Source: Agromyces laixinhei
GTDB taxonomy: Bacteria > Actinomycetota > Actinomycetes > Actinomycetales > Microbacteriaceae
Reading direction: 5' to 3'
DNA length: 64,000 nt
Assembly: GCF_006337065.1 (NCBI RefSeq)
Contig: NZ_CP040872.1
Location: 3,373,204-3,437,203 of the forward strand
Shown here: piece by piece, positions 42,970-57,886 of the stretch
Numbering within the stretch: position 1 is the first letter of the stretch
Layout of the letters: the number at the start of each line of letters is the position of its first letter
Made by a program: the position numbers and the translations under genes
Notes under the pieces: model-generated
What the model saw: only the letters and a program-made list of their open reading frames with translations
Database searches by the model: none
Told to the model about the DNA's origin: nothing

Positions 42970-44340
42970 TCATGCACGCCGCATGAATCGGAGTCCGAAC
43001 TGCACGCCGAGCCCTGCGGCATCCGGAACCAGCGTGCGCCAGAACGACTCGCCATCGCGTTGCCACACGAATCCGGCACCGGATGCTGCGGGAACGACGG
43101 CCGACCCGATGGCGGGATTCTCTCCCGCCTCGAGGAGCTCCGCTGCGGCACGCCGGCCGTCGACGTCGATGACGAGGTCGCTGTCGCCATTGCGGTACCT
43201 CCCCGCAGCGCCGGAGGGGAACAGGCCCGAGGTGCCGTCGGCCGCGGCGACGTCGGCGGGGGCGGGTGCGACCGGACCGTTCAGGCCGGCAACCTCGCGC
43301 GCGAGCATCGGCATCAGCTCGTCGAAGAAGGGACGCGCACGCCCGCCGTTCGTCAGGAGCACGAACGCGCAACCCGCGGATGGCACGGCGCGCGCGAAGG
43401 CGAACTGCCCGTTCGTGCCGCCGTCGTGCCCGAACACCTTCGCGTCATCCCAGCGTTCGATCATCCAGCCGAGACCCCAAGCGTCGATGCCGGGCACGGC
43501 GGTGCGGATGGCGGGCGAGCACATCGCCGCGACCGTCGCCGCGGACAGCACCCGCTGCCCGTCGCCGGTCGTGCCGCCGCGCATCGTCATCGCCAGGAGA
43601 TCGAGCACGCTCGCGGCATCCGTCGTGAGAATGCCGGCCGGTGCCATGCCGGGCGGAATCGACCACGGCTCCGCCCGGGTGAGCCGACCGTCCGCCCGGA
43701 AGACATGGCCGATGGCCGGAGCCTCGACATCTTCGGCGCGGGTCGGGGCGGCAACCCGCTCGAGGCCGAGCGGGCGGTCGATCAGCTCGTGCACGACCCG
43801 ACGCCATGGCATGCCGGCGGCGACCTCGATCGCTCGCCCCGCGATGACGTAGCCGGCGTTGCCGTACGAGAACCGTTCGCGGAGCGGGTGCACCTGCTCG
43901 GCATCGCCGAGGTCGTCGACGTATCGGGCGATGGCGAGGTCGTCGTCGCCGGTCTCGCGGAATCGGTCGCCCACGATGCCGCTGCGATGGGCGAGCAGGT
44001 CGGCGAGCGTCACTTCTTCGGCGACCGCGGGATCGGCGAGGGCGAGCGACGGCAGCACCGCACGCACCGGTGCCGCGACCGAGAGAACGCCCAGTTCGTC
44101 CAGCCGCAAAGCGGCGGCGGCCGTCCACGCCTTCGTGATCGACCCGATCTGGAACGAGGAGTCGCGACGCACCGGGTCGCCCGTGGCGATGTCGAGCACT
44201 CCGCTCTCGACGAGCGTTCGGTCGTGTTCGTCACCGCCGCGGCCGAGCCGGAGGATGCCGAGTTGCGCACCCGGTACGTCATGACGCTGCCGGAGCCGAT
44301 CGAGTTCGTTCCGCCATCCGTCGGCGTCGCCCGCCGTCAT
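42970..44340 (-). CDS. Class C beta-lactamase-fold serine hydrolase
   Basis: 456 residues. SITK (Ser67, Lys70) is the S-x-x-K nucleophile motif and YGN in FSYGNAGYVIAG the second motif; a lipocalin-like C-terminal domain follows about residue 340. There is no signal peptide, so it is cytoplasmic. Family members include DD-peptidases, D-aminopeptidases, esterases and beta-lactamases. It lies 16 bp after the dppF-like gene at the end of the dipeptide transporter operon, where a D-peptidase acting on imported peptides fits best. The start at 44340 is chosen because the upstream extension overlaps dppF antisense-free coding and looks unrelated. Confidence 0.82.
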   Translation of the reverse strand: MTAGDADGWRNELDRLRQRHDVPGAQLGILRLGRGGDEHDRTLVESGVLDIATGDPVRRDSSFQIGSITKAWTAAAALRLDELGVLSVAAPVRAVLPSLALADPAVAEEVTLADLLAHRSGIVGDRFRETGDDDLAIARYVDDLGDAEQVHPLRERFSYGNAGYVIAGRAIEVAAGMPWRRVVHELIDRPLGLERVAAPTRAEDVEAPAIGHVFRADGRLTRAEPWSIPPGMAPAGILTTDAASVLDLLAMTMRGGTTGDGQRVLSAATVAAMCSPAIRTAVPGIDAWGLGWMIERWDDAKVFGHDGGTNGQFAFARAVPSAGCAFVLLTNGGRARPFFDELMPMLAREVAGLNGPVAPAPADVAAADGTSGLFPSGAAGRYRNGDSDLVIDVDGRRAAAELLEAGENPAIGSAVVPAASGAGFVWQRDGESFWRTLVPDAAGLGVQFGLRFMRRA

Positions 44341-44356
44341 CGCGCGCTGCTCGCGG

Positions 44357-45148
44357 TCATAGGAGCGGCACGCCGATCTGCGGAACGGCCGAGATGAGCT
44401 GCCGGGTGTACTCCTCGCGCGGACGCTCGAGCACGGAGAGCACGTCACCCTCCTCGACGAGCTCGCCACGCAGCATCACTGCGACGCGGTCGCAGACGTG
44501 CCGCACGACGGCGAGATTGTGGCTCACGAACAGCACGGTGAGACCGAGTTCACGCTGCAGGTCGACGAGGAGGTTCAGCACCGATCCCTGCACCGAGACG
44601 TCGAGCGCCGAGGTGATCTCGTCGGCGAGGATCACCTCGGGTCCGGCGGCGAGCGCACGCGCGATGGCGATCCGCTGGCGCTGACCACCCGAGAGCTCGT
44701 TCGGGAGTCGCGTCGAAAAGGTGGCCGGCAGCCGAACCGCTTCCAGCAATCGGGCGGTCTCGCGTCGTCGGTCGCCGCCTCTCGGCGTTCGCTCTCGCTG
44801 GCGCCTCGCCCGGGCGACGATCGCTTCGCCGAGGGTGTCGCCGACGCTCCGGCGAGGGTCGAGGCACGAGTTCGGGTCCTGGAAGATCATCTGGATGCGC
44901 CGCCGGACCAGGGCTGCGTCTCCGCGGGCGTTCGCGATCTCGACGCCGTCGAGCGTGATGCTGCCGGTCGTGGGTTCGTGCAGTCCGACCGCTGCGCGCG
45001 CGAGGGTCGACTTGCCCGAGCCTGATTCGCCGACGAGCCCGGTGATCGACCCCGACGCAACCTCGAGGGAGACGTTCCGCACCGCATGGACGGCGGCGTG
45101 CCCGTGACCGAATACGACGGTCACGTCGCGGAAGGCGAGCGTGCTCAT
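44357..45148 (-). CDS. dppF: Dipeptide/oligopeptide ABC transporter ATP-binding protein (DppF-like)
   Basis: 263 residues. Walker A GESGSGKST, Q-loop in MIFQDPNSCLDPRRSV, signature LSGGQRQRIAIARAL, Walker B VILADEITSALD, H-loop FVSHNLAVV. The C-terminal oligopeptide-transporter extension is only partly present. It pairs with the ATPase half of the preceding fusion protein to drive import. Its start overlaps the fusion stop by 4 bp (45145-45148). Confidence 0.92.
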   Translation of the reverse strand: MSTLAFRDVTVVFGHGHAAVHAVRNVSLEVASGSITGLVGESGSGKSTLARAAVGLHEPTTGSITLDGVEIANARGDAALVRRRIQMIFQDPNSCLDPRRSVGDTLGEAIVARARRQRERTPRGGDRRRETARLLEAVRLPATFSTRLPNELSGGQRQRIAIARALAAGPEVILADEITSALDVSVQGSVLNLLVDLQRELGLTVLFVSHNLAVVRHVCDRVAVMLRGELVEEGDVLSVLERPREEYTRQLISAVPQIGVPLL

Positions 45149-46983
45149 CCGACCACCTCCACGGGTCGATCGGCATCGGCATCGGAATCGGAATCGGCGT
45201 CGATGTCGATGTCGATGTCGAACACTCGATCCTCCGGGATGGTCGCCAGCCGCTCCGAACGGTCGCCGTCCATCGTGGGCACCGAATCGAGGAGCGCCCT
45301 GGTGTACGGATGCCGCGCCCGACCGCCCACCAGATCGTCGACGGAGACCGCCTCGACGATGCGTCCGCGGTACATCACGAGCACACGAGTGCAGACGGCG
45401 GTGATGACGGCGATGTCGTGGGAGATGAGCACGATCGCCGTGTCATCGGTGCGGTTGATCTCGGTGAGGAGGCCGAGGACGCCCTTCTGCACCGTCACGT
45501 CGAGGGCCGTGGTCGGCTCGTCGGCGATGATCAGCTTCGGCGTGCCCATCAATCCCATCGCGATCATCGCCCGCTGGCGCATGCCGCCAGAGAACTCGTG
45601 CGGGTACTGCTGCGCACTCTGCTCAGGACGGGGGATGTGCACGGCGCGGAGTCGATCGATCGCCCGCTGCAGCGCAGTGCGTCGTTTCGCGCCCTCATGG
45701 AGTTGCGCGATCTCCGCCACTTGCGGGCCGACCTTGAGCGCCGGATTCAGCGACGACATCGGGTCCTGGAAGACCATCGCGAGTCGGGTTCCGAGCAGCC
45801 GCGCGTGGCGCCGGTTGACGGCATCCGCCGAGATCTCCCCCGGCCCGGCGAGCGTGACGCCGTCGAACTCGAGCCGGCCGGCGGATGCGCGGAGCGGAAG
45901 GTCGGTGAGGCCCGCGATCGACATCATGCTGAGACTCTTGCCAGAACCGGACTCGCCGACGATCCCGAGGATCTCGCCGCGGGCGACGTCGAAGGAGATA
46001 CTCTGAACCGGGTGGGTCCAACCTGCCTCCGCCGGAGCCGACACGACGAGGTCGCGCACGCTGAGCACCCGCTCGGTGTCTTCCGGCAGCGCGCCGTCGG
46101 TGTTGTGATCGGCGTGGGGTTGCGGCGGTCGCCTGGCGCCGCGCGGTGTGCGCACCGAACCGGTGCCGGGGAGGTTCTTGGCGAGGAACTCGCCGAAGAG
46201 CGTGAAGACGAGCCCGGCGATCACGATCGCGGCACCGGGCACGAGCGCCGACGCCGGGCTCACGAAGATGCGGGTCTGACCCTCGCCGAGGAGGCGCCCC
46301 CAGTCGTAGTCGGGCGCCTGCACGCCGAGGCCGAGAAAGGAGAGGCTCGCGAACGCCACGAGGCTGGCGCCCGCGCTGATCGTGGCGCGCACGATCAGCG
46401 GGTCGCGGATGTTGGGCAGCACATGCCGGAACATGATCGTCCACCGCGGCACGCCGAGCACATGCGCTGCGGCGACGTAGTCGCGGCCGAGCACCGAGGC
46501 ACTCAGCGTGTACGTCAACCTGGCGTAGTCGGGCGTCATCGCCGCCCCGATCGCGATGACCGCGCTCAGCGCGCTCTGCCCGAGCACCACGGCCAGCCCG
46601 ATCGCGAGCAGCAGGGCCGGGAAGGCGACGGCGATGTTGATCGACGAGACGACGAGTCGCGACGTGCGTGTGCCGAGCATGGCCGGAACCAGGCCGAAGA
46701 AGATGCCGAAGCAGACGCCGATCGCCGTTGCGCACAGCGCCATGGCGACCGAGAGCTGCGTGGCGACGAGCGTGCGCAGCAGCACGTCGCGCCCGCCGGC
46801 ATCCGTGCCGAACGGATGCTCGGGTGAGGGCGGCTGAGAGATCTGACCGGGGTCGGAGATGCTCGCCTGCTCGCCCCAGATCATCGGTGCGACCACGGCC
46901 ACGGCGAGCACGCCGAGCACCCCGATCGTCGTCGCGATGCCGAGCGGTGAGGCGATCGCGGAGCGCAGGCGGCGGGTGGACAT
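45145..46983 (-). CDS. Fused dipeptide ABC permease-ATPase (DppC-DppD)
   Basis: 612 residues. Residues 1-275 are a DppC-type permease with the EAA-like loop AAAHVLGVPRWTIMFRHVLP. Residues about 310-590 are a DppD-type ATPase: Walker A GESGSGKSL, signature FSGGMRQRAMIA, Walker B LIIADEPTTALD, H-loop LISHDIAVI. Such fusions are known in actinobacteria and some other bacteria. The C terminus ends in an acidic Asp/Ser repeat (DIDIDIDADSDSDADAD) encoded by near-hexamer DNA repeats at 45169-45222, a likely slippage site. It begins 1 bp after the dppB stop. Confidence 0.9.
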   Translation of the reverse strand: MSTRRLRSAIASPLGIATTIGVLGVLAVAVVAPMIWGEQASISDPGQISQPPSPEHPFGTDAGGRDVLLRTLVATQLSVAMALCATAIGVCFGIFFGLVPAMLGTRTSRLVVSSINIAVAFPALLLAIGLAVVLGQSALSAVIAIGAAMTPDYARLTYTLSASVLGRDYVAAAHVLGVPRWTIMFRHVLPNIRDPLIVRATISAGASLVAFASLSFLGLGVQAPDYDWGRLLGEGQTRIFVSPASALVPGAAIVIAGLVFTLFGEFLAKNLPGTGSVRTPRGARRPPQPHADHNTDGALPEDTERVLSVRDLVVSAPAEAGWTHPVQSISFDVARGEILGIVGESGSGKSLSMMSIAGLTDLPLRASAGRLEFDGVTLAGPGEISADAVNRRHARLLGTRLAMVFQDPMSSLNPALKVGPQVAEIAQLHEGAKRRTALQRAIDRLRAVHIPRPEQSAQQYPHEFSGGMRQRAMIAMGLMGTPKLIIADEPTTALDVTVQKGVLGLLTEINRTDDTAIVLISHDIAVITAVCTRVLVMYRGRIVEAVSVDDLVGGRARHPYTRALLDSVPTMDGDRSERLATIPEDRVFDIDIDIDADSDSDADADRPVEVVG

Positions 46984-46984
46984 G

Positions 46985-47995
46985 TCAGCCGTCCTTCAGC
47001 GCAGTGCGCGGGTCGATGGCGATGAGTACGAGGTCGACGACCAGGTTGATGACGAGGATCACCGCGCCGTAGAAGACGACGATCGCCTGGATGAGCGGGT
47101 AGTCCTTCTGCTGGATCGATTGCACGATCGTCGTGCCGAGGCCCGGCCAGGCGAAGATGTTCTCCACGAGCACCGTGCCGGCGATCATGCCGCCCAGGAG
47201 CAGGCCCGAGATCGTCAGCGTCGACGTCAGGATGTTGGGCAGCACGTGGCGAAGGTAGAGCCGCGGCGCCGGCATCCGCTTGGCGCGGGCGGTGCGCACG
47301 TACTCCTGCTCGAGCACGACGAGCGTCTCAGCGCGCACGATGCGCGAGATGGCCGCGATTCCGCCGATCGCCAGCGCAGCGACAGGGAGGATGTACGAAC
47401 TCGCCCCGCTGCGACCGGCGACCGGAAGCACCTGCGCCGACACCGCGAAGAGGTAGACGAGCCCCACGCCGAGGAGGAACTCGGGTATGACCGAGAACAC
47501 GGTCGCGAAGGAGGTGTACGTCACCTCCAGCGGGCGCCGGCGTCCGCGACGCGTCAAGGCGCCCGCCGCGAGTCCGAGCGGGATGCCCACGAGCAGCACG
47601 ATGGCCACCGCGATGGCCGCCAGTTCCAGCGTGGCCGGCAGCCGAGATGCCATCACCTCGGCGACCGGCACCCGAAGCGTGATCGACTCGCCCATCGAGC
47701 CCGAGAACAGTCCGCTCCAGAGGCGAAGGTACTGCAGCCAGAGCGGGAGGTCGAGGCCCAGCTCGACGCGCCGCTGTTCGACGAGCTCGGGCGTCGCATT
47801 CGGGCCGGCCGACGTCTGTGCCGGATCTCCCGGGATGAGCTGCACCATCAGGAAGGCCGCGGTGACGAGCACGATGACCGACACGACGAAGTGACCCAGG
47901 CGGCGGAATCCGTAGCGGATCCAGACCCGGCGGCCGGCCCGTGCGCGGGGAGGCGCCGCGGGAGCGGCCGCCGGGGCCGTCGTCGTGTCGGTCAT
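46985..47995 (-). CDS. dppB: Dipeptide ABC transporter permease (DppB-like)
   Basis: 336 residues, six hydrophobic segments. The DppB family layout is clear: FVVSVIVLVTAAFLMVQLIP GD at the N terminus, the EAA-type loop YVRTARAKRMPAPRLYLRHV, and ENIFAWPGLGTTIVQSIQQK D near the end. An Ala/Pro-rich cytoplasmic N-terminal extension of about 25 residues is typical of actinobacteria. It lies 9 bp after the binding-protein gene and 1 bp before the fusion gene. Confidence 0.93.
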   Translation of the reverse strand: MTDTTTAPAAAPAAPPRARAGRRVWIRYGFRRLGHFVVSVIVLVTAAFLMVQLIPGDPAQTSAGPNATPELVEQRRVELGLDLPLWLQYLRLWSGLFSGSMGESITLRVPVAEVMASRLPATLELAAIAVAIVLLVGIPLGLAAGALTRRGRRRPLEVTYTSFATVFSVIPEFLLGVGLVYLFAVSAQVLPVAGRSGASSYILPVAALAIGGIAAISRIVRAETLVVLEQEYVRTARAKRMPAPRLYLRHVLPNILTSTLTISGLLLGGMIAGTVLVENIFAWPGLGTTIVQSIQQKDYPLIQAIVVFYGAVILVINLVVDLVLIAIDPRTALKDG

Positions 47996-48004
47996 CGAGG
48001 GTGC

Positions 48005-49591
48005 TCAGCCCTTCATCTGGATCGAGGGGCCGATCAGGGTGTTCGGCAACGCGAGTTCAGCACCGTTGAGGTAGGTCACCTCGTCTTGCGCAGCGAACGG
48101 GATCGTGTCGGCCGCTTCGTAGAGCGCCTGCTCGGCTTCCTTCCAGAGGTCGCACGATTCGACACCCGCGAGCTCTCCGGCCGCAGCGATCTTCTCGTTG
48201 TAGACCGGGTTGTCGATACCCGCTGAGTTGCGGCCGCCCGGAGGCAGCGCACCCGTGTTCCACGGCACCATGATGCTCGGCAGCCAGGCGTTGATGGCCG
48301 CGTCGGCGATGTCGAAGCTGCCCAGGTTGCCCTCGTCGTAGAGCTTGGAGAGCTTGAAGTTCACGTCGCCGCCGTCGAGTTGCAGGTCGACGCCGACCTT
48401 GGCGTACTCCTGCTGGGCCAGCTCCATGGCCGCAGACATCGTCTCGGAAACGGTGAAGAGCATGCTGAGCGTGAGGGGCTGGCCGTCCTTGGCGCGCATG
48501 CCGTCGGCGCCCTTCACCCAGCCGGCCTCATCGAGCAGCTTCTCGGCCGCGGCGACGTCGTAGTCGGGCACGGCACCGTCGGTTGCGTCGTAGGGGCACT
48601 GGTTGGGAGCCATCATGGCGAGGCGTTCCGCGCGGTAGCCCTTCCCATCGGTGATGACCTGCGTGAGCGCTTCGAAATCGATGGCCTTGGCGAGCGCGAG
48701 CCGCACGTTCGGATCGGCCGTCGGCTTGCCCTCGAGCTGCGAGAAGTACCACTGACCCTGGATGAGCGAGACTCGGCGCCCGACCTCGGCGGATGCCGCG
48801 ACACGATCTTCGTCGGGGCCGGTGACCGTGGCGGCGTTGAGCTCGCCTGCGAGCAGCAGGTTCGCCGCCGTGCTGACGTTCTCGATGACGCGGATGGTCA
48901 CCTCGTCGGGCGCGGCCTCCGTCTCGGAGGTGTTGCCGCCCTCGGGTCCCCACGTGTAGCCGTCACGCTTCGTGAGCGTGTAGTGATCGCCGGTCACCGC
49001 TTCGGTGAGCTGGTACAGGCCGGTGCCGACGGACGCGGCGGACGCGGCATCCGGGTCGTCGAGTGCCGGCTGGCACATGATCTCGAGCGCGCCAGTCTGG
49101 GTGAGCAGGAACGAAGACGGCGCCGTGACGCTCACCGTGACGGTTCCGGCATCGTTGTCGAACTCGGCGGTCGCGTCGGCGGGCACGAGCACCCCGTTGA
49201 TGGCCGATTCGTTCTCGACGTCGGTGACCCAGTTGAAGTTGGCCGCGACCACCTCCGGCGTGAGCTCGCTGCCGTCTTCGCAGGTCACCCCTTCCTTGAG
49301 GTGATACGTCACTTCGGTGGACGACTCCTCCCACGACTCCGCGAGCCACGGGCTTGCCTCACCGGTCTCGGGATCGAAGAACACGAGGTTGTCGTACATG
49401 AACCCCGTGACTTCGCGGGCGGCGTTCGCGGTGGTCATGAATGGATTGAGGTTGCCCGGATCGTCGGTGAGGCCGAAGACGAACGTGCCATTCGAAGATC
49501 CGTCATCACCTCCTCCAGCGGAGCAGCCGGCGAGGAGCAGCACGCCGGCTGAGGTCGCCGCGGCCACCTTCAGGAATCGGGTCTTGTTCAT
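48005..49591 (-). CDS. Peptide ABC transporter substrate-binding lipoprotein (DppA/OppA type, SBP_bac_5)
   Basis: 528 residues. A lipoprotein signal ends in VLLLAGC. The mature protein has the SBP_bac_5 pattern: NLNPFMTTANAAREVTGFMY at the N terminus, SPWLAESWEESSTEVTYHLK, VRLALAKAIDFEALTQVI, and DYDVAAAEKLLDEAGW. It captures peptides outside the membrane for the DppB/CD/F complex. The ATG at 49591 has AGGAG seven bases upstream. It is first in its operon; 168 bp upstream of it contain a motif shared with the divergent M20 operon. The specificity cannot be read directly, but neighbours point to D-amino-acid peptides. Confidence 0.92.
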   Translation of the reverse strand: MNKTRFLKVAAATSAGVLLLAGCSAGGGDDGSSNGTFVFGLTDDPGNLNPFMTTANAAREVTGFMYDNLVFFDPETGEASPWLAESWEESSTEVTYHLKEGVTCEDGSELTPEVVAANFNWVTDVENESAINGVLVPADATAEFDNDAGTVTVSVTAPSSFLLTQTGALEIMCQPALDDPDAASAASVGTGLYQLTEAVTGDHYTLTKRDGYTWGPEGGNTSETEAAPDEVTIRVIENVSTAANLLLAGELNAATVTGPDEDRVAASAEVGRRVSLIQGQWYFSQLEGKPTADPNVRLALAKAIDFEALTQVITDGKGYRAERLAMMAPNQCPYDATDGAVPDYDVAAAEKLLDEAGWVKGADGMRAKDGQPLTLSMLFTVSETMSAAMELAQQEYAKVGVDLQLDGGDVNFKLSKLYDEGNLGSFDIADAAINAWLPSIMVPWNTGALPPGGRNSAGIDNPVYNEKIAAAGELAGVESCDLWKEAEQALYEAADTIPFAAQDEVTYLNGAELALPNTLIGPSIQMKG

Positions 49592-49707
49592 GAGATCTCC
49601 TGCTGTTCGGATGTTGCTGTCGGGATGTGATCGTCGGACCCGGTCGGGCTCGGCCGAGTTCGTACCAGCATCACACCCGGCAAACCGGCGGCTGTTGTCG
49701 CGCCCGA

Positions 49708-49740
49708 CCAAACTGCGAGAAAGTGGTTGGCGGATCCGAC
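49708..49740 (-). promoter_or_regulatory. Shared motif upstream of the binding-protein gene
   Basis: On the minus strand GTCGGATCCGCCAAC (49740-49726), then 11 bases, then AGTTTGG (49714-49708), pointing towards the substrate-binding-protein gene 117 bp away. The same order, GTCGGATCCGACAAC then AGTTTTTGG, occurs before the M20 gene at 53841. The first block matches in 14 of 15 bases. Likely a binding site for the PucR-type regulator encoded between the two operons. Confidence 0.6.
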
Positions 49741-49759
49741 AGTGGGACGACCGGGCAGA

Positions 49760-50692
49760 TCAGACGCGTGAACGAAGCTCATCCACGACGGCCCGACCGA
49801 TGAGGCCGATGGAACGGTCGGCGTCGATGTTGCGGGGCTCCTCGAGGGTTTCGCGCACGAACACGGCGACCGCGTACCGGCCGCCGTCGGGGTATTCGAT
49901 CATCCCCGCCTCGTTGCGCAGATACGGGAGCGTGCCGGTCTTGCCGCTGATGCGGATCCGCGAGTCGGGGAATCCGGCCTTCAATCGGTGCGGCCACACC
50001 TGGAGGGAGAGGATGCGCCGCGCCTCCGCCGTCGCTGCCGGAGCGAGCACTCCGCCCTCATCCCAGAGCAGTGCGAGGCTCGCGGTCACCTCACGCGGGG
50101 TGGTTCGATTCGTCGCGCTCGCGTCGAGCACGCGCATGCCGGCGAGCCGCTCGCGCAACGAATCATCCGGATGCTGCCAGGCCGGATCGTCGACATCGAC
50201 GCCGGCGTCCTCCACCATCGTGCGGAACAGGCCTGCGCAGTCTTCGACGAGCACGGTCTGTTCGAGACCGAGCCGGCGCGAGCGCTCGTTGATGGCGTCG
50301 AGGCCGAGGAGGTCGATGAGGATGTCGGTCGCGCGGTTGTCGCTCACCGACATCATGCTCACCGCCAGATCCCGAACCGAGAGCGTGACGTCGTCGAGGA
50401 ACACCGAGAGCGTGACGTCGTCGAGGAACACCGAGAGCCCGGTGTCTCCCGGCGTTCGGAACGCCTCGCGAGCGATGAACATGCCCTGTGCCGGGTCGAT
50501 CGAGCCGTCGGCGAAGCGGCAGCAGAGCTCGGTGAGAACGGGCACCTTGAAGATCGAGGCCGGCACCACCAGATCGTCGGCCGCAACGCCGAACTCCTCA
50601 CCGGTGTCGACGTCGATCGCATGCATCGTCGCCGTGACGCCGAGTTCGGCCTCGATGCTGCCGATCCGCTCACGCAGCGCCTGTTCCGTCAT
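49760..50692 (-). CDS. Class A beta-lactamase-fold serine hydrolase
   Basis: 310 residues. S-x-x-K is ASIFK (Ser46, Lys49), the SDN triad VSDNRA (117-119) and the KTG box SGKTGTL. No signal peptide is visible, so it should be cytoplasmic, unlike secreted beta-lactamases; family relatives are DD-peptidases or esterases. It holds a perfect 9-residue tandem duplication (VFLDDVTLS at 88-96 and 97-105). Without it the Ser-to-SDN distance would be 62, close to the family norm of 60. The start overlaps the hydantoinase-like stop by ATGA. An activity on D-amino-acid peptides fits the context; antibiotic resistance is not implied. Confidence 0.82.
   Translation of the reverse strand: MTEQALRERIGSIEAELGVTATMHAIDVDTGEEFGVAADDLVVPASIFKVPVLTELCCRFADGSIDPAQGMFIAREAFRTPGDTGLSVFLDDVTLSVFLDDVTLSVRDLAVSMMSVSDNRATDILIDLLGLDAINERSRRLGLEQTVLVEDCAGLFRTMVEDAGVDVDDPAWQHPDDSLRERLAGMRVLDASATNRTTPREVTASLALLWDEGGVLAPAATAEARRILSLQVWPHRLKAGFPDSRIRISGKTGTLPYLRNEAGMIEYPDGGRYAVAVFVRETLEEPRNIDADRSIGLIGRAVVDELRSRV
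50381..50434. repeat. 27-bp in-frame tandem duplication
   Basis: Two perfect 27-base copies at 50381-50407 and 50408-50434 (unit starts GAGCGTGACGTCGTCGAGGA). They give the 9-residue duplication in the class A-type hydrolase. The lack of any difference between copies suggests a recent event. Confidence 0.9.
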
Positions 50693-52080
50693 CGTTCTCC
50701 TTCCGCGCCGCCGGCGGCGGTGCCGTTCGCTCGGAATTGCTCCACTCCGCGGCCGGGCCGGGCGAGGACCTCCCGATCGGCGAGCACGAGCTCGCCGCGG
50801 CTGACCACCCATCGCGGCCATCCGTTCGCCTCACGCCCCTCATACGGCGAGTGGCCGGCACGCGAGATCAGCTCCCGATCGTCGATCACCCGGCGGTCGG
50901 CCGGGTCGATGGCGACGAGGTCGGCGTCGGCGCCTTCTCGGATCACGCCCTTGCGGGGGTGGAGGCCGAACAGTCGGGCCGGATTCCCGGCCGTCAGCCG
51001 CACCAGGGCGGTGAGGTCGATCCTGCCGCCGAGCACGCCCTCGGTGAAGAGCAGCGGCAGGAAGGTCTCGAGCTCCGCCATGCCTTTCGGCACCGTCGCG
51101 AAGCTGTGTGCCGGATCCATCTTCTGGGCGAGGGTCCACGGTGCGTGGTCGCTGCCGATCGTGTCGATCGAGCCGTCGGCGAGCCCGCGCCAGAGTGCCT
51201 GCACATCGTCGCGCGAGCGCAGCGGCGGCATTCCCACGTATCTCGCGGCATCTGGCCGGGCATAGCGCGACTCGTCGAGATAGAGGTAGACCGGGCGGGC
51301 CTCCACGTGCACGTCGACGCCGCGCCGGCGTGCTGCGGTCGCCACCTCGAGCGCCGCCGCGGATGAGCAGTGCACGACATCGATCGTCGCGCCGGTGAAC
51401 TCGGCGATCGCCACGGCGCGCTCGACCGCGGCGCGCTCGGAGAGCACCGGTCGAGACGCCGGGTAGTGCTCGATGCCGGTCATCCCGGCGCGCTCGAGCT
51501 GCTCGCCCGCCGCGCGGACGATGGCCTCGTCCTCGCAGTGGATCATGACGACCATGCCCGCCTCGGCGGCACGCCGGATCGACTCGATGATCCGGCTCCC
51601 GTCCCAGTCGAACGCAGGCATCACCATCTTGTACGCGGAGTGCCCCGCAGCGCCGAGTTCGGCCAGTTCGTCGAGCGAGGCCTCGTCGACGGTGACGAGG
51701 CTCGGATGCAGGAGGAAGTCGGTCGTGGCCTGCTCCGCGAACGCGGCCCGGTCTCGCGCGACGGCCGCACCGACGGTCTCGCCGTCGAGCGGAAAGCTCA
51801 TCTGCCCCACTGTGCCGACGCCGCCGGCGATCGCCGCGAGGGTGCCGGTGCGCATGTCGTCGGCGAAGGTCGGCTCGGCGCCTGCCAGCATGGCGGGAGT
51901 GCTGAGGTGCACGTGCGGATCGATCGCGGCGGGCACCACGAAGGTGCCGCGGCCGTCGAGTTCGGCTCTGCCGCGCATGCTCCCGCCGATCTGCGCGACT
52001 CGTTCGCCGACGATTCCGAGGTCCTCTTCGACGAGGCCACGCTCCGTCACGAGCGTGCCGCCGCGCACGACGGTGTCCAT
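50689..52080 (-). CDS. Dihydropyrimidinase/hydantoinase-like cyclic amidohydrolase
   Basis: 463 residues. The binuclear metal site of the amidohydrolase superfamily is complete: DPHVHL (His56, His58), the carboxylated Lys151 in AYKMVMPAF, His181 in MIHCEDE, His in VHCSSAAA, and Asp in GSDHAPW. It opens cyclic amides such as hydantoins, dihydropyrimidines or dihydroorotate. The start at 52080 gives the usual N terminus MDTVVRGGTLV. It leads the divergent operon with the class A-type hydrolase. In this cluster it may act on 5-substituted hydantoins or cyclised N-carbamoyl amino acids, which is inference. Confidence 0.88.
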   Translation of the reverse strand: MDTVVRGGTLVTERGLVEEDLGIVGERVAQIGGSMRGRAELDGRGTFVVPAAIDPHVHLSTPAMLAGAEPTFADDMRTGTLAAIAGGVGTVGQMSFPLDGETVGAAVARDRAAFAEQATTDFLLHPSLVTVDEASLDELAELGAAGHSAYKMVMPAFDWDGSRIIESIRRAAEAGMVVMIHCEDEAIVRAAGEQLERAGMTGIEHYPASRPVLSERAAVERAVAIAEFTGATIDVVHCSSAAALEVATAARRRGVDVHVEARPVYLYLDESRYARPDAARYVGMPPLRSRDDVQALWRGLADGSIDTIGSDHAPWTLAQKMDPAHSFATVPKGMAELETFLPLLFTEGVLGGRIDLTALVRLTAGNPARLFGLHPRKGVIREGADADLVAIDPADRRVIDDRELISRAGHSPYEGREANGWPRWVVSRGELVLADREVLARPGRGVEQFRANGTAAGGAEGER

Positions 52081-52130
52081 CACGTCGGCCAACGCACCTC
52101 CTCGATCGTTGCGACCACCCTTCCAGCGTC

Positions 52131-52140
52131 GTCGGATCGG
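52131..52140. promoter_or_regulatory. Third copy of GTCGGATC between divergent genes
   Basis: GTCGGATCGG lies between the hydantoinase-like start (52080) and the PucR start (52209). It matches 9 of 10 bases of GTCGGATCCG found before the other two promoters of the cluster. It is short and could be chance alone. Confidence 0.4.
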
Positions 52141-52208
52141 AGGCCGGATTCTTGTCGGCTCGGCCAATGACCCGGCATGGTAGTTGTTGGACTGAACAGG
52201 GAGGTTCT

Positions 52209-53828
52209 GTGGCCGCACCCGAACTCACGCTCTCGAGGTTGCTCGACCGGTATCGCTTCGCTCAGCTCGAGCCGGTGATCCCGTTCGAGACCGATCGCAG
52301 CATCACCGGCGTCGTGACCGATGACGAACTGTGGGATGCCGAGGGCGCCCTCGTGCTCGGCATCGGGCTCACGGGCCGAGAAGCCGTCGACCGTGCCGCC
52401 GGTCGTTGGGCCGGCGCCGCCGCACTCGTCATTCGTTCCGACGCACTCCCGGTGGACGCGGCGGAAGACGTCGCCCGGGCCGTCGCGCCGACCGCGCTGC
52501 TCAGTCTCGGCCCTGCCATGTCGTGGCTGCGTTTCTCCGGCCTCGTCTCCGCCGAGCTCGAGGGCGCTGGCGAGATGGGGGCGACGATGTCGGAGTCTCG
52601 CGGCGACTCGGAGCTCCACGATTTCGCAGACTCGATCGCGGCGCTCGTCGGCGGCCCGGTGACCATCGAGGACATGTCGTCGGCGATCCTCGCGTTCTCC
52701 TCCGACCAGGACCGCGCCGACGAACCCCGCAAGCGAAGCATCCTCGAGCGGCGGGTCTCCCGGGTGCACAACGAGATCCTCGCGCGGGCCGGCGTCTTCG
52801 ACCAGCTGTACTCCAGCACGCAGCCGGTGTTCGTCACGCCCACCATCGAGGGTGCCCGGCCCCGCGCCGCCATCCGCATCAAGGCAGGCGAGGAACTGCT
52901 CGGCTCGATCTGGGCCGTCGTCGACGGGCCCCTCTCCGTCGTGCAGTCTCGCGGCATGCTCGAGGCGTCCAACGTCGTCGGACTCTCGATGCTCAGGCGT
53001 CGGCTCTCGGACGAGGCGCACGGCGAATCGCGGCTCTCGCTGGTCACTCGCCTCGTCGAAGGCGGCTCGGCGGCCGCGGAGGCGGCGCGGGAGCTCGGCA
53101 TCGGCGACGCGCCCGCCTTCGTCATGGCCATCCGGCGAACCGGATCGACCGGCGATGATCTCGAAGGCGGGCTCGCGCTGCGCAGCCTCTCTCGGGTGTT
53201 CGCGAGCTTCATCGCGTCGGTCAACCGCCGTGCGGCCGTCGCCGAGGTGGGAAGCACGATCTACGCGGTGATCCCCGTGCACGGAGCCGGCGACCCCGCA
53301 TCTGCCGATGAAGCACACGTGGCAGGCGCCCGGCGGTTCGCCGAGGATCTGTTACGGCGAGTGCCGCGCGCCGACGTCACCATCGGCTACGGCGAGCTCG
53401 TCACCGACATCACGCAACTCGCGAGATCACGCCGGCAGGCGGACGCGGCCGTGCGGGTCAGCCGCCTGACCCGAGCGGAGGGCCAGGTCGCGTACTGGCG
53501 AGACGTGCAGGTGGACTCGCTGATGCTGGAGATCGTCGACACCATGATCAGCCGGCACGAAACGCTGGCGCACCCGCTCGACCGCCTGGCGGCTGAAGAG
53601 GAACGCAGCGGGATCGAGCTCGTGCCGACGCTCTCGGCGTATCTCGAGCACTTCGGTGACGTGACCGCGGCGGCGGCCTCGCTCTACGTGCACCCGAACA
53701 CCTTCCGTTATCGGCTTCGGAAGATCGGCGCCGCAGCCGGCATCGAACTCGACGACGCCCGCACCCGATTCGAACTGCTGTTCCAGCTTCGCCTCGAGCG
53801 GTACCGCGGGCTCCTGCGCGGCGACTGA
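52209..53828 (+). CDS. PucR/CdaR-type regulator of the D-amino-acid peptide cluster
   Basis: 539 residues from a GTG with GGGAGG upstream. The N terminus is PucR-like but shortened (LGIGLTGREAVDRAAGRWAG). A GAF-like middle (DFADSIAALVGGPVTIEDMS) follows, and the C-terminal helix-turn-helix is VTAAAASLYVHPNTFRYRLR. PucR/CdaR proteins usually activate catabolic operons on sensing their substrate. It lies in the middle of the cluster, divergent from the hydantoinase operon and 135 bp before the M20 operon, so it probably controls both arms. Confidence 0.87.
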   Translation: MAAPELTLSRLLDRYRFAQLEPVIPFETDRSITGVVTDDELWDAEGALVLGIGLTGREAVDRAAGRWAGAAALVIRSDALPVDAAEDVARAVAPTALLSLGPAMSWLRFSGLVSAELEGAGEMGATMSESRGDSELHDFADSIAALVGGPVTIEDMSSAILAFSSDQDRADEPRKRSILERRVSRVHNEILARAGVFDQLYSSTQPVFVTPTIEGARPRAAIRIKAGEELLGSIWAVVDGPLSVVQSRGMLEASNVVGLSMLRRRLSDEAHGESRLSLVTRLVEGGSAAAEAARELGIGDAPAFVMAIRRTGSTGDDLEGGLALRSLSRVFASFIASVNRRAAVAEVGSTIYAVIPVHGAGDPASADEAHVAGARRFAEDLLRRVPRADVTIGYGELVTDITQLARSRRQADAAVRVSRLTRAEGQVAYWRDVQVDSLMLEIVDTMISRHETLAHPLDRLAAEEERSGIELVPTLSAYLEHFGDVTAAAASLYVHPNTFRYRLRKIGAAAGIELDDARTRFELLFQLRLERYRGLLRGD

Positions 53829-53840
53829 GCCATGACGCCC

Positions 53841-53873
53841 GTCGGATCCGACAACACGAGCCAGAGTTTTTGG
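53841..53873 (+). promoter_or_regulatory. Shared motif upstream of the M20 operon
   Basis: GTCGGATCCGACAAC (53841-53855) contains the perfect palindrome GTCGGATCCGAC (53841-53852). After nine bases comes AGTTTTTGG (53865-53873). It is 90 bp before the M20 start and copies the arrangement before the substrate-binding-protein gene on the other strand. Confidence 0.6.
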
Positions 53874-53962
53874 GACGGACCGACGAAGAGCGTCAGGCGC
53901 GCGTCAGCGAACCTTGACTGGAAGCCGCGTCATGCGGGCCGACGAGGCGAAGGAATCCCAGC

Positions 53963-55111
53963 GTGTCGAACGTGAGCATGAGCGTCATCCCGGCTGACAT
54001 CGCCCTCGGCCGCCTGCTCGACGACATCCGACGACTCGTCGTCATCGAATCTCCCTCCTCCGACCTGGCTGCGGTCGAACGGAGTGCACGGGCGGTCGGC
54101 GCACTGATCGCCGAGCGCCTCGGCGCGGAGGCGGAGACCCTCGTTATCGACGGAGTCACCCATCTGCGGGTTCGCTTCGGCGATGGACCGAGTCGAGTGC
54201 TGATCCTGACCCACCACGACACCGTCTGGCCGATCGGCACCCTCGAACGCATCCCGTTCGAGGTCGAAGGCGACATCCTCACCGGCCCCGGGTCGTTCGA
54301 CATGAAGGCCGGACTCGTCTCGGGAATCCACGCGATCGCCGCGGTACTCGAACACACCCCGGCGCTCGACGGGGTGACGCTCCTCGTCACCGGCGATGAG
54401 GAACTCGGCTCCCCGACCTCACGGGAGCTCATCGAGGCCGAGGCGGCAGGTTGCGCCGGTGTGCTCGTGCTCGAGGCTGCCGCAGACGGCGGCGCCCTGA
54501 AGATCGCGCGCAAGGGCGTGTCGACCTACCGCGTCGTCATCACCGGGCGTGCCTCGCATGCCGGACTCGAACCCGAACTCGGGGTCAACGCGGTCGTCGA
54601 ACTCGCACACCAGATCGTGCGAATCGCCGCGCTCGGGGCGGCAGAGCACGGCACGACCGTGACGCCGACCGTGGTCGACGGCGGCACCGCACAGAACACC
54701 GTGCCCGCGACGGCCTCGGTGCGCGTCGACGTGCGCGCGGCGACGCGAGCGGAACAGGATCGGGTCGATTCGGCCATCCGCAGTCTGTCTCCCGTGCTCG
54801 AGCGGGCATCGATCACGGTCGAGGGTGGTCCCAATCGGCCCCCCATGGAGCCCGAGGCATCCGCCGCGCTCTTCGAGCGAACACGACGAGTCGCCGCCGA
54901 GATCGGCATCGAGCATCTGGCCGGCGTCAGCGTCGGCGGCGGTTCAGACGGGAACTTCACCGCCGGAATCGGCGTGCCGACACTCGACGGTCTCGGTGCC
55001 GTCGGCGCCGGGGCGCACGCTGACCACGAGCACGTACGCGTGCACCACCTGCCCGAGCGCACCGCCCTCGTCGCGGCCCTCATCGAAGACCTCGCGGGGG
55101 CCGCACGATGA
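53963..55111 (+). CDS. M20 family metallodeacylase/carboxypeptidase (glutamate carboxypeptidase-like)
   Basis: 382 residues, GTG start with AAGGA eight bases upstream. Zinc ligands and catalytic residues are visible: THHDTVWP, Asp113 in GPGSFDMKAG, Glu146/147 in VTGDEELGS, and a dimerisation domain with GRASHAGLEPELGVNA. It resembles carboxypeptidase G2 and N-acyl-amino-acid deacylases. Beside an acyltransferase and an N-acylamino-acid racemase it most likely removes the acyl group from N-acyl-L-amino acids. It overlaps the acyltransferase gene by 4 bp. Confidence 0.88.
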   Translation: MSNVSMSVIPADIALGRLLDDIRRLVVIESPSSDLAAVERSARAVGALIAERLGAEAETLVIDGVTHLRVRFGDGPSRVLILTHHDTVWPIGTLERIPFEVEGDILTGPGSFDMKAGLVSGIHAIAAVLEHTPALDGVTLLVTGDEELGSPTSRELIEAEAAGCAGVLVLEAAADGGALKIARKGVSTYRVVITGRASHAGLEPELGVNAVVELAHQIVRIAALGAAEHGTTVTPTVVDGGTAQNTVPATASVRVDVRAATRAEQDRVDSAIRSLSPVLERASITVEGGPNRPPMEPEASAALFERTRRVAAEIGIEHLAGVSVGGGSDGNFTAGIGVPTLDGLGAVGAGAHADHEHVRVHHLPERTALVAALIEDLAGAAR

Positions 55112-55926
55112 GCGGAGTTCGCCAGGCGCCCGCATCGGCTCCATCGCTGACCGCCGTGCCCGTGCAGTCGGATCACGACGCGATGCGGCTCATCTCAGTG
55201 CTCGATCGCGTCTGGGGCGGTTCGGTCGGATCCAGCCACCTCGACCAGGGGATGGTCATCGCCCTCGCGCACGCGGGTGACTATGCGGTGCTCTTCGAGC
55301 ACGATGGTGAGGCCGTCGGGGCCGGAGTCGGGTTCTTCGGGCCGCCGCTCGACGCGGTGCTGCACTCGCACATCGTCGGAGTGGTGCCCGAAGTGCTCGG
55401 GCGCGGCGTGGGGCTCGCGATCAAGCAGCATCAGCGCGAGTGGTGCCTCGAGCGCGGCGTCCGCACGATGACGTGGACCTTCGACCCGCTCGTGGGTCGG
55501 AATGCGGCGTTCAACCTGCGCAAGCTCGGCGCACGCGCAGAGCGATACCTCGAGAACTTCTACGGCGAGATGGTCGACGGCATCAACTCCGGCCAGGCGA
55601 CCGACCGGGTGCTGCTGCGCTGGCGGCTCGACCGACCGAGCCCGGTTGCCGGGCCGATGGCGGATGCGCCGGGCGTGCCGGTGGTTCCCTGGCTCGTCGA
55701 GGACGCAGACGGCGAACCTCGCCGATTGACGCCTGGGCCCGATGCCGCCCGCGTGAGTGTGCACGTGCCACGCGACATCGAGGCGATGCGGCGAAGCGAT
55801 GCCGCCCTCGCCCGGCGCTGGCGTACGGCGGTGCGCGAGACCCTCGGTGCGGCGATGGTCGGCGGCGGCTCGGTCGTCGAGTTCAGCGCCACCGGGGACT
55901 ACGTCGTCGAAAGGATCGCAGGATGA
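55108..55926 (+). CDS. COG3375-type GNAT acyltransferase, probable D-amino-acid N-succinyltransferase
   Basis: 272 residues. The GNAT core reads LHSHIVGVVPEVLGRGVGLA, IKQHQREWCLERGVRTMTWT, followed by the COG3375 signature FDPLVGRNAAFNLRKLGAR and YLENFYGEMVDGINSG. Members of this group occur next to N-succinylamino-acid racemases, and in Geobacillus kaustophilus one is reported to succinylate D-amino acids. Both ends overlap neighbouring genes by ATGA, which makes the enzyme trio an obligate unit. The C-terminal 60 residues are less conserved. Confidence 0.85.
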   Translation: MSGVRQAPASAPSLTAVPVQSDHDAMRLISVLDRVWGGSVGSSHLDQGMVIALAHAGDYAVLFEHDGEAVGAGVGFFGPPLDAVLHSHIVGVVPEVLGRGVGLAIKQHQREWCLERGVRTMTWTFDPLVGRNAAFNLRKLGARAERYLENFYGEMVDGINSGQATDRVLLRWRLDRPSPVAGPMADAPGVPVVPWLVEDADGEPRRLTPGPDAARVSVHVPRDIEAMRRSDAALARRWRTAVRETLGAAMVGGGSVVEFSATGDYVVERIAG

Positions 55927-57044
55927 AGTTGCTCGGTATCCGGCTGCACCGACTCGAGATGCCGCTCGTGGCACCGTTCACCACGTCGTTCTCCACGCAG
56001 ACCGTGCGTCATCCGATGGTGATCGAACTCAGTGCCGCGTTCGGCGACGACGTGGTCACCGGGTGGGGCGAGTGCGTTGCGCTCGATGCGCCGGTCTATT
56101 CCGCGGAGTACGCGGACGGCGCGGCCGAGGTGATCCGCCGCTGGATCGCGCCGAGGCTCTTCGATGCCGGTGCGTTCACGGCCGAGACCGTCGCAGAGCA
56201 TCTGCGGCCCATCGTCGGCAACCGGATGGCGAAGGCCGCGGTCGAGATGGCGGCGCTCGATGCGCAACTGCGGCACCGCGGTGAGTCGTTCGCCGACTAC
56301 CTCGGCGTCACTCGAGACAGCGTGCCATCGGGCGTGTCGGTCGGCATACAGCCCTCCATCGCGGCGCTGATCGACACGGTCGGCGGATACCTCGACGAGG
56401 GCTATGCGCGCATCAAGCTCAAGATCAAGCCAGGGCACGACATCGACGAGGTTCGGGCCGTTCGCGAACATTTCGGCGATGAGACGCTGCTGCAGGTCGA
56501 CGCGAACACGGCATACACACTCGCGGATGCCGCGCACCTCCGGCGCCTCGACGAGTTCCGATTGCTGCTCATCGAGCAGCCGCTCGGCGAGGAGGATCTG
56601 CGCCAGCACGCAGAACTCGCGCGCCGGATGGCGACGCCGATGTGCCTGGACGAATCGATCGTGTCGACCGAGGTCGCGGCCGACGCGATCGCGCTCGGCG
56701 CGGCATCGATCATCAACATCAAACCCGGTCGGGTCGGCGGCTTCCTCGAGGCCCGTCGCATTCACGACCTTGCACGCGCCAACGGGCTCGCCGTCTGGTG
56801 CGGCGGCATGCTCGAGACCGGCATCGGGCGAGCGGCCAATATCGCACTCGCCGCTCTTCCCGGTTTCACGCTGCCCGGTGACATCTCGGGGTCGGGCCGG
56901 TTCTACGCACGCGACGTGACCACGGAGCCCGTCGTGATGCACGACGGCGTCGTCGACGTGCCGACCGGCTCGGGATTCGGTGTCGAAGTCGACGCCGGAG
57001 CGCTCGCAGACTTCACCCTCGACACGACGGAGATCACGCGATGA
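55923..57044 (+). CDS. N-acylamino-acid racemase / o-succinylbenzoate synthase family
   Basis: 373 residues, enolase superfamily, MLE subgroup. The active-site set is complete: KxK in RIKLKIKPG with Lys167, metal ligands Asp193 (VDANTAYT), Glu218 (IEQPL) and Asp243 (CLDES), and Lys267 in INIKPGRVGG. All five lie exactly four positions after those of the Amycolatopsis N-acylamino-acid racemase (163, 189, 214, 239, 263). No other men gene is near and the neighbours are an acyltransferase and deacylase, so racemisation of N-acyl amino acids is more likely than menaquinone synthesis. The start overlaps the previous stop (ATGA). Confidence 0.88.
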   Translation: MKLLGIRLHRLEMPLVAPFTTSFSTQTVRHPMVIELSAAFGDDVVTGWGECVALDAPVYSAEYADGAAEVIRRWIAPRLFDAGAFTAETVAEHLRPIVGNRMAKAAVEMAALDAQLRHRGESFADYLGVTRDSVPSGVSVGIQPSIAALIDTVGGYLDEGYARIKLKIKPGHDIDEVRAVREHFGDETLLQVDANTAYTLADAAHLRRLDEFRLLLIEQPLGEEDLRQHAELARRMATPMCLDESIVSTEVAADAIALGAASIINIKPGRVGGFLEARRIHDLARANGLAVWCGGMLETGIGRAANIALAALPGFTLPGDISGSGRFYARDVTTEPVVMHDGVVDVPTGSGFGVEVDAGALADFTLDTTEITR

Positions 57045-57886
57045 AGGTCTACATCTCGATCGACATGGAAGGCGTCGCGGGCATCGCCACCCGTGACCAG
57101 ATCAGCCGCGGCGGGCATGGCTACCCGTCGGCGCAGGAACTCATGACCGCGGAGGCGAACGCCGCCGTCGCGGGGGCATTCGCGGGCGGGGCCACGGCCG
57201 TGACGATCAACGACAGCCACGGCACCATGGACAACCTCATTCCCTCCGACCTCGACCCGAGAGCAAGGCTGGTGCTGGGCAAGCCGAAGCTGCAGTGCAT
57301 GGCCGCCGGCGTCAGCCCCGACGACGACGTCGCCCTCTTCATCGGCTACCACGCCCCGGCCGGCGGCCCGGGCGTGCTCGCCCACACGTTCTCGGCGTAC
57401 TTCACCGAGGTGCGGCTGAACGGCATTGCGGCCTCCGAAGCCGACGTGAACCTCATGCAACTCTCGGCGGCCGGCGTGCCGCTCGGTCTCGTCACCGGTG
57501 ATGACGTCACCTGTGCGCTCGTCGGCGACCGCATGCCGGGTGTTCGCACCGTCGAGGTCAAGCGGGCGCTCGGCTGGAGCGCGGCGGATTCGATGTCGCC
57601 GTCAGTGGCCTGTGCGGCGATTCGTGCTGCCTCGGAGGCCACGGTATCGGCGGCCGCGGGGCTCCGCGTTCCGGCCGTGCCCGAGGTGCTCGACCTGGAG
57701 ATCGACCTGCCCACGCTCGCCGCCGCCGACATTGCGCAGTTCATTCCCGGAGTGCGCCGCACGGGGCCGTTCACGGTGGCTGCCACCCTTCCGAACCCGG
57801 ACGCGGTCGTCGGGTGCATCGTCGTCGTCTACCAGCTGACGGCGAATTCGATGACCGAGCACCTCGCGCTCGTCAACCGTCGGTGA
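57041..57886 (+). CDS. dppA: D-aminopeptidase, M55 family
   Basis: 281 residues, the family length. Zinc ligands Asp8 and Glu10 are in ISIDMEGVAG; TINDSHGTMDNL and LFIGYHAPAG carry further His ligands. M55 enzymes form cytoplasmic decamers that cut D-Ala-D-Ala, D-Ala-Gly-Gly and similar D-peptides. The gene overlaps the racemase stop by ATGA and closes the M20-GNAT-racemase-dppA operon. It would deliver free D-amino acids to the acyltransferase. Confidence 0.9.
   Translation: MKVYISIDMEGVAGIATRDQISRGGHGYPSAQELMTAEANAAVAGAFAGGATAVTINDSHGTMDNLIPSDLDPRARLVLGKPKLQCMAAGVSPDDDVALFIGYHAPAGGPGVLAHTFSAYFTEVRLNGIAASEADVNLMQLSAAGVPLGLVTGDDVTCALVGDRMPGVRTVEVKRALGWSAADSMSPSVACAAIRAASEATVSAAAGLRVPAVPEVLDLEIDLPTLAAADIAQFIPGVRRTGPFTVAATLPNPDAVVGCIVVVYQLTANSMTEHLALVNRR

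Follow-up and report, generated by a model that had tools for sequence, protein, structure and literature searches.

The window analysed here is a 64,000-nucleotide stretch of the Agromyces laixinhei genome (contig NZ_CP040872.1), and its span 42970–57886 holds 12 open genes arranged as two arms flanking one PucR-type regulator. Read from the centre outward, the minus-strand arm consists of a hydantoinase-like gene, serA (a class-A-fold serine hydrolase), a 168-bp gap, a substrate-binding lipoprotein, a permease, a permease-ATPase fusion, an ATPase and serC (a class-C-fold serine hydrolase); the plus strand carries pucR (52209–53828), a 134-bp gap, and then an M20 deacylase, a GNAT acyltransferase, a racemase and DppA. 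The two-armed gene set that an earlier note on this DNA described around the regulator is thus real, all frames being open, with the gene count raised from eleven to 12. The ATGA overlaps given there for M20/GNAT, GNAT/racemase and racemase/DppA are likewise present, and the minus arm has its own at hydantoinase/serA and fusion/ATPase. The hydantoinase-like frame is separated from the pucR start by a divergent gap of 128 bp. As predicted from the gaps, the transcription units are likely hydantoinase-serA, binding protein to serC, pucR, and M20 to dppA. A promoter search found no sigma-70-type promoters, and terminator-like sites numbered 1, against a shuffled mean of 3.5. Nothing stands out in base composition (G+C 69.3% in the cluster vs. 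69.9% in the left and 67.3% in the right flank), and the idea of an island was rejected on that measure.

The earlier note had proposed, as a check, to see whether the two arms are linked elsewhere. Scanning GTDB contigs with a serA alignment gave 423 relatives, the best 80 of which were kept with at most 10 kb on each side (some contigs end sooner), and a partner was counted as present at tblastn E ≤ 1e-20. Among these 80 loci, the transporter parts are represented by the fusion in 26, the B-type permease in 24 and the binding protein in 21, and the other partners by serC in 20, M20 in 21, PucR in 18, GNAT in 17, the racemase in 16, dppA in 9 and the hydantoinase in 1. The same transporter, by which we mean both permease genes at ≥50% identity, is found in 19 loci, and these carry serC in 18, M20 in 16, GNAT in 12, the racemase in 11, PucR in 10 and dppA in 5, compared with 2, 5, 5, 5, 8 and 4, respectively, in the other 61. 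Twelve loci combine it with two or more genes of the trio M20, GNAT and racemase (Jiangella, Microcella, Sediminivirga, Solihabitans, Streptomyces, Amycolatopsis), and five further ones combine it with dppA (Arthrobacter, Leucobacter), so that the arms are linked in 17 of the 80 best serA loci, in several actinobacterial genera. Looser counts (20/80 and 15/80) took in transporters that run off the edge of the locus or are about 30–40% alike; the strict values are 17/80 and 12/80. Additionally, Rhodococcus loci combine serA, PucR, M20, GNAT, racemase and dppA. Two genes absent from the window cluster recur in the relatives' loci: an amidohydrolase in 17 of the 80 (E ≤ 1e-20), for which all four tested proteins pass PRK09061, a model we take to describe D-glutamate deacylase, and an S9 peptidase in 16, one protein of which was typed.

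The second line of evidence is a palindrome, TTGTCGGATCCGACAA, common to the gaps upstream of both arms. One candidate operator, TTGGCGGATCCGACAG (49727–49742), lies upstream of the transporter/serC unit and the other, CCGTCGGATCCGACAA (53839–53854), upstream of the M20-GNAT-racemase-DppA unit, with weaker copies at 49695–49710 (TTGTCGCGCCCGACCA) and, in the divergent hydantoinase/pucR gap, at 52152–52167 (TTGTCGGCTCGGCCAA). Allowing one mismatch, TGTCGGATCCGACA occurs at 3 places in the 3.44-Mb genome, two of them the arms' upstream gaps; allowing two, it occurs at 18 places vs. 1 for the reversed pattern. A search of the window for the 16-base form, with ≤3 mismatches allowed, yields three copies, all in cluster gaps, where 0.31 were expected and 1 of 100 shuffles reached three.

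Conservation of the palindrome was assessed in 29 loci selected for carrying the cluster, namely L136, L138 and 27 of the 80, with 500 palindromes of permuted half-sites as controls. A copy with ≤4 mismatches lies upstream of a cluster gene in 12 of the 29 loci (control mean 0.74, maximum 9, none of the 500 as high), compared with 2 when the sequences ahead of the remaining genes of these loci are searched; at ≤3 mismatches the values are 7 of 29 (control mean 0.07, maximum 3) and 0. The 12 positive loci comprise five of Jiangella, two of Amycolatopsis, and one each of Phytoactinopolyspora, Microcella, Sediminivirga, Solihabitans and an actinobacterial genome bin. A matrix built from their sites and those of the window was then applied to the 17 held-out loci, and scored ≥12 in 7 of them (control mean 0.28, maximum 4, 0/300 as high): five of Rhodococcus, four with an identical site, one of Phytoactinopolyspora and one of Leucobacter. 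Over the 64-kb window the matrix ranks the four cluster sites highest, all of them part of its own training set. A stricter motif (14 bases, ≤2 mismatches) was found in 6 of the 29 relatives, the copies in L059 and L106 lying inside frames. The site is shared by both arms and conserved in relatives. The protein predicted to act on it, judging by this conservation, is the PucR-type regulator (52209–53828, plus strand, start GTG at 52209), which has the C-terminal HTH_30 and the GGDEF-like (GGDEF_2) domains of its type (PF13556, 74 bits; PF17853, 45 bits).

Downstream of pucR, on the plus strand, lie the genes of the putative conversion module. The M20 peptidase-family deacylase (53963–55111, starting at GTG 53963 or ATG 53978; PF01546, 84 bits) has carboxypeptidase G2 as its best PDB match. 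The GNAT-fold N-acyltransferase (55108–55926, 272 aa) was assigned by a fold search, which speaks to the fold and not to the acyl donor and hardly covers residues past 178. The third enzyme (55923–57044, 373 aa) falls by sequence into the N-succinylamino-acid racemase/o-succinylbenzoate synthase (NSAR/OSBS) family, both through TIGR01928 (296 bits, cut-off 200.65) and through its closest solved relative, the N-acylamino acid racemase 1sja (463 bits), and on this sequence evidence it belongs to the N-acyl/N-succinylamino-acid racemase branch. TIGR01928 is itself named “o-succinylbenzoate synthase”, a plasmid relative is labelled menC, and the earlier note had kept in view that the enzyme might act only as an OSBS. 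The genome, however, encodes a separate PRK02901-type MenC (G000:C1:51004-51978; 471 bits, cut-off 288), so the racemase was rejected as its only OSBS, and with an N-acylamino acid racemase as closest solved relative and M20 and GNAT as neighbours, a menaquinone OSBS is highly improbable here.

In the racemase tree the window protein groups with the Sediminivirga and Microcella racemases of linked loci (support 100/99) and not with its own genome's second copy. The “linked” label needs three changes on this tree, the linked racemases being clustered and not one clade; the label is threshold-defined, and Rhodococcus L086, whose transporter is cut by the locus end, was counted as unlinked. The Rhodococcus IEGM rows bear a wrong family label in both the racemase and the DppA trees. 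The second copy forms a GNAT + racemase pair near 1.40 Mb (L150 9702-11722), of a different racemase clade, and lies downstream of what by eye is a dehydrogenase-like gene, and of a hydantoinase-like match (32%).

The plus arm ends with a DppA-like M55 D-aminopeptidase (57041–57886; PF04951, 278 bits). Aligned residue by residue with 1hi9, it has D8, E10, H60, H104, H115 and E133 in register, residues that we take to be those of the active site, and it belongs to M55; it scores 160 bits against the NCBIfam equivalog NF058634, far below the cut-off of 430. The window DppA groups with the DppAs of serA clusters, apart from five other DppAs (support 100/100), and close relatives (E ≤ 1e-70) occur in 2 of 396 genomes of the order, its own included.

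On the minus strand, the transporter is of the dipeptide/oligopeptide (Dpp/Opp) ATP-binding cassette (ABC) type. It consists of a family-5 substrate-binding lipoprotein (48005–49591, start ATG at 49591; PF00496, 176 bits), a B-type permease (46985–47995; PF00528, 127 bits; PF19300), a 612-aa fusion with PF00528 and PF00005 in one frame (45145–46983), and an F-type ATPase (44357–45148; PF00005, 114 bits; PRK11308, 242 bits, below the cut-off of 408). Long matches across both the permease and the ATPase part of the fusion are also found in relatives.

The transporter genes are followed by serC (42970–44340, 456 aa), an S12-type serine hydrolase that fits the fold family PF00144 (156 bits), and preceded by serA (49760–50692; PF13354, 164 bits), whose motifs S46xxK49, S117DN and K251TG (SxxK, SDN, KTG) are invariant across 19 sequences. 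For serC the best PDB matches are IS11 7spn (145 bits) and 6ksu (88 bits), and weaker ones include alkaline D-peptidase, DD-carboxypeptidase and D-amino acid amidase. Class A beta-lactamases carry a conserved omega-loop glutamate, E166; in serA, the stretch from SDN to KTG shows no Glu in its invariant or 90% columns. Both proteins were rejected as canonical beta-lactamases, since they miss the NCBIfam cut-offs (serA vs. class A NF033103, 73.5 bits, cut-off 200; serC vs. class C, 46.8 bits, cut-off 415). The lack of a signal peptide noted earlier for both holds as judged by eye. The release of D-amino acids proposed for them, judged from folds and relatives, is not supported at present. This copy of serA contains an exact 27-bp tandem duplication (50376–50438) that adds nine residues; none of the 18 relatives in the alignment has the insert, not even a twin with 97% identity, and the predicted structure is uncertain there (residues 83–93, predicted local distance difference test score under 50). 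The duplication may impair this copy.

Closest to the regulator on the minus strand is the hydantoinase-like amidohydrolase (50689–52080, 463 aa), which scores 338 bits against the D-hydantoinase equivalog TIGR02033, below the cut-off of 393. The residues that we take to form its dinuclear metal site (H56, H58, K151, H181, H237 and D311) are invariant in 16 aligned sequences. Its occurrence in a single one of the 80 serA loci makes it an optional member and not, as previously supposed, a conserved one. A further GTDB locus, L056, has a hydantoinase beside serA, PucR and a binding protein, and among the 120 matches listed per protein search, five pairs of serA and hydantoinase matches come from contigs of equal length, which suggests, short of proof, that they are neighbours. 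Close relatives (E ≤ 1e-85) are found in 3 of 396 genomes of the order, its own included; a relative (47–48%) lies near a different peptide-type transporter in two further genomes of that order. Our guess is that the window hydantoinase replaces the relatives' PRK09061-type amidohydrolase.

Within the organism's own family, conserved co-occurrence, which the earlier note had suggested looking for, was not borne out, the cluster being rare in the sampled genomes. In 150 family genomes (own included), GNAT was found in 30 (E ≤ 1e-10), serA in 5 and DppA in 9 (E ≤ 1e-15), with best identities outside the own genome of 29% for serA and 38% for DppA. From 34 GNAT places in the family, 23 regions of 20 kb were taken as a GNAT-centred sample, and 20 of the 23 contain the racemase. 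L136 and L138, family loci recovered without serA, join transporter, serC, M20, GNAT and racemase; five DppA-centred regions (of 8 other family genomes with DppA) have a transporter of lower similarity and lack all remaining parts, and it is their DppAs that form the separate group in the DppA tree. The cluster is patchy across actinobacteria, not conserved in one family. Four Leucobacter clusters (L067, L077, L079, L132) adjoin an FAD-type hydroxylase gene and three of them (L067, L077, L132) lie beside a Leu/Phe/Val-type dehydrogenase gene, both as judged by eye.

On plasmids, serA was found in 11 records, and in the one examined, a mobilizable linear plasmid of Streptomyces sp. NBC_01243 (L174, NZ_CP108492.1 183010-209894), most of the set forms a single run. 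It begins with a helix-turn-helix protein, a major facilitator superfamily protein, serA, an amidohydrolase, M20, GNAT and the menC-labelled racemase, and continues with another helix-turn-helix protein, serC, one more serA, a binding protein, a permease and a permease-ATPase; a transposase gene lies upstream, and no dppA or hydantoinase label is present. The annotation reads “serine hydrolase”, the serA/serC split being read from length and order; the first helix-turn-helix protein is taken as PucR-like. The racemase there is annotated menC with a menaquinone term, despite the peptide-cluster setting.

We consider it probable that the cluster is one catabolic regulon, under the PucR-type regulator, by which D-residue peptides are taken up, hydrolysed in the cytoplasm and converted from D to L. 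Judging by its family, the transporter would import short peptides, and their cytoplasmic cleavage by serC, serA, the M55 DppA and the hydantoinase-like cyclic amidase, whose folds are known to handle D-residue substrates, may yield D-amino acids in free or N-acyl form. Free D-amino acids would be acylated by the GNAT enzyme, the NSAR-type racemase would interconvert the N-acyl-D and N-acyl-L forms, and because the M20 enzyme would hydrolyse the N-acyl-L form, the flow would be drawn from D to L. Both arms would be co-expressed through binding of the PucR-type protein to TTGTCGGATCCGACAA. The integrated system that the earlier note envisaged is upheld as far as the linkage of the arms in several genera, the shared palindrome and the NSAR-branch racemase are concerned; the hydantoinase drops out of the conserved unit, and peptidoglycan becomes one possible source of the peptides among others.

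Several observations weigh against a single regulon. Of the 80 serA loci, 51 have none of the 11 partners, serA alone being a poor marker, and content varies (hydantoinase, dppA and racemase being among the scarcer members, at 1, 9 and 16 loci). The Rhodococcus loci L069, L078 and L081 lie near a transporter only 26–36% alike, and so a different one, and a DppA of 49% identity in another member of the family stands alone, no further cluster gene being found in the 13 kb around it that were covered. In the family sample GNAT and racemase mostly occur without the transporter, transporter, serC and M20 being together in 2 of the 23 regions. NCBIfam equivalog cut-offs are missed by the DppA, D-hydantoinase, class A/C beta-lactamase and dipeptide transporter proteins. 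As for the operator, 17 of the 29 relatives lack a copy with ≤4 mismatches ahead of any cluster gene, related loci do not count as independent (five Jiangella, five Rhodococcus), the palindrome is a G+C-rich dyad, and an exact third genome copy lies away from the cluster, at 414337. This last copy is read as chance: it sits amid ssb-like, dnaB-like and transposition-type genes (by eye), and no match to any cluster protein was found in the surrounding stretch.

The variable gene content among relatives, and the frequent occurrence of GNAT and racemase without the transporter in the own family, would also fit two neighbours with separate functions, one a peptide transporter accompanied by hydrolases of side activity, the other a unit that turns D- into L-amino acids. 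Such a split is at odds with the presence of the same transporter together with the conversion module in 12 of the 80 serA loci, with a membership that persists while gene order differs, and with a palindrome common to both arms; we regard it as improbable.

The peptides could come from the cell wall, peptide antibiotics or other sources, peptidoglycan being one possibility. D-amino acids occur in cell walls and in many natural products of peptide type, and to our knowledge the actinobacterial use of D-amino acid peptides is poorly mapped. A cluster scavenging specifically the stem peptides of muropeptides would fit the DD-carboxypeptidases among the class-C-fold relatives of serC, and DppA-type enzymes and dipeptide transporters are tied to D-Ala peptides in Bacillus subtilis. 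Pfam matches, however, reveal no LD-carboxypeptidase, NlpC/P60 endopeptidase or amino-sugar gene among the 12 genes, and D-Ala and D-Glu have ordinary racemases that would make the acyl route needless for them; we find this specific substrate rather doubtful. Non-ribosomal peptide products or peptide antibiotics with D-residues, eaten and detoxified, are a possible but still doubtful substrate. The PDB matches of serC include 6ksu (“alpha/beta hydrolase”) and Ulm16 (“PBP cyclase”), both presumably non-ribosomal peptide cyclisation enzymes acting at D-residues, and the cluster occurs in Streptomyces, in Amycolatopsis and on a Streptomyces plasmid; the argument for such specificity is tentative, however, and the 12 genes include no known resistance or non-ribosomal synthesis gene. 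Reaching further, we offer as an unlikely extension a mobile, modular actinobacterial regulon that eats microbial D-residue peptides, antibiotics included, and that has here recruited a hydantoinase, by which cyclic N-carbamoyl or imide D-residue ends would be opened to N-acyl-D-amino acids passing straight into racemase and M20.

Two natural systems resemble the cluster in part. Geobacillus kaustophilus reportedly has an NSAR pathway of N-succinyltransferase, NSAR and L-desuccinylase; it is matched here by GNAT, NSAR-type racemase and M20 in one overlapping run, whereas the window combines this module with a transporter for peptides, a pair of serine hydrolases, DppA and a PucR-type regulator that has a shared site. 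The Bacillus subtilis dppA-dppBCDE-ykf operon encodes an M55 D-aminopeptidase, a dipeptide ABC transporter, an enolase-superfamily dipeptide epimerase, an LD-carboxypeptidase and a gamma-D-Glu endopeptidase. Common to both are the M55 D-aminopeptidase, the dipeptide ABC transporter and a chirality-changing enolase-superfamily enzyme. Unlike the Bacillus operon, the cluster would convert its substrates by acylation, racemisation and deacylation and not by a dipeptide epimerase, its DppA stays at 160 bits where the NCBIfam DppA cut-off is 430, and its 12 genes lack an LD-carboxypeptidase or endopeptidase by Pfam, the rest of the genome not having been searched for them. A plain copy of dpp-ykf is disfavoured because these stem-peptide partners are not among the 12 genes. 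BlaB of Streptomyces cacaoi (PDB 2wuq) is described in the PDB as a beta-lactamase regulatory protein, and neither window serine hydrolase reaches an NCBIfam beta-lactamase cut-off.

L-carbamoylases are M20-like. One review deals with racemases (PMC8142540) and another with cascades that use NSAR and hydantoinase (PMC7431475); the latter outlines an engineered “hydantoinase process”, a cascade of D-hydantoinase, NSAR and L-carbamoylase. The window likewise brings together a hydantoinase-like enzyme with an NSAR-type racemase and an M20-family hydrolase. The cascade is man-made, whereas here the M20 enzyme is nearest to carboxypeptidase G2 and the hydantoinase is rare in relatives. If the recruitment proposed above is true, the cluster would be a natural counterpart of the engineered hydantoinase/racemase/deacylase cascade.

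No description of the joined unit was found among the top-ranked titles and abstract starts, in a search that left most subscription journals outside, so its novelty is unproven. The outcome is a defined gene set with a candidate regulator and a candidate operator, all directly testable and, if the reading is true, one that would change the meaning of genes which, in clusters of this kind, now bear the label menC or that of a class A or C beta-lactamase. The conversion module and the pairing of D-aminopeptidase with dipeptide transporter are already known, from Geobacillus and Bacillus respectively.

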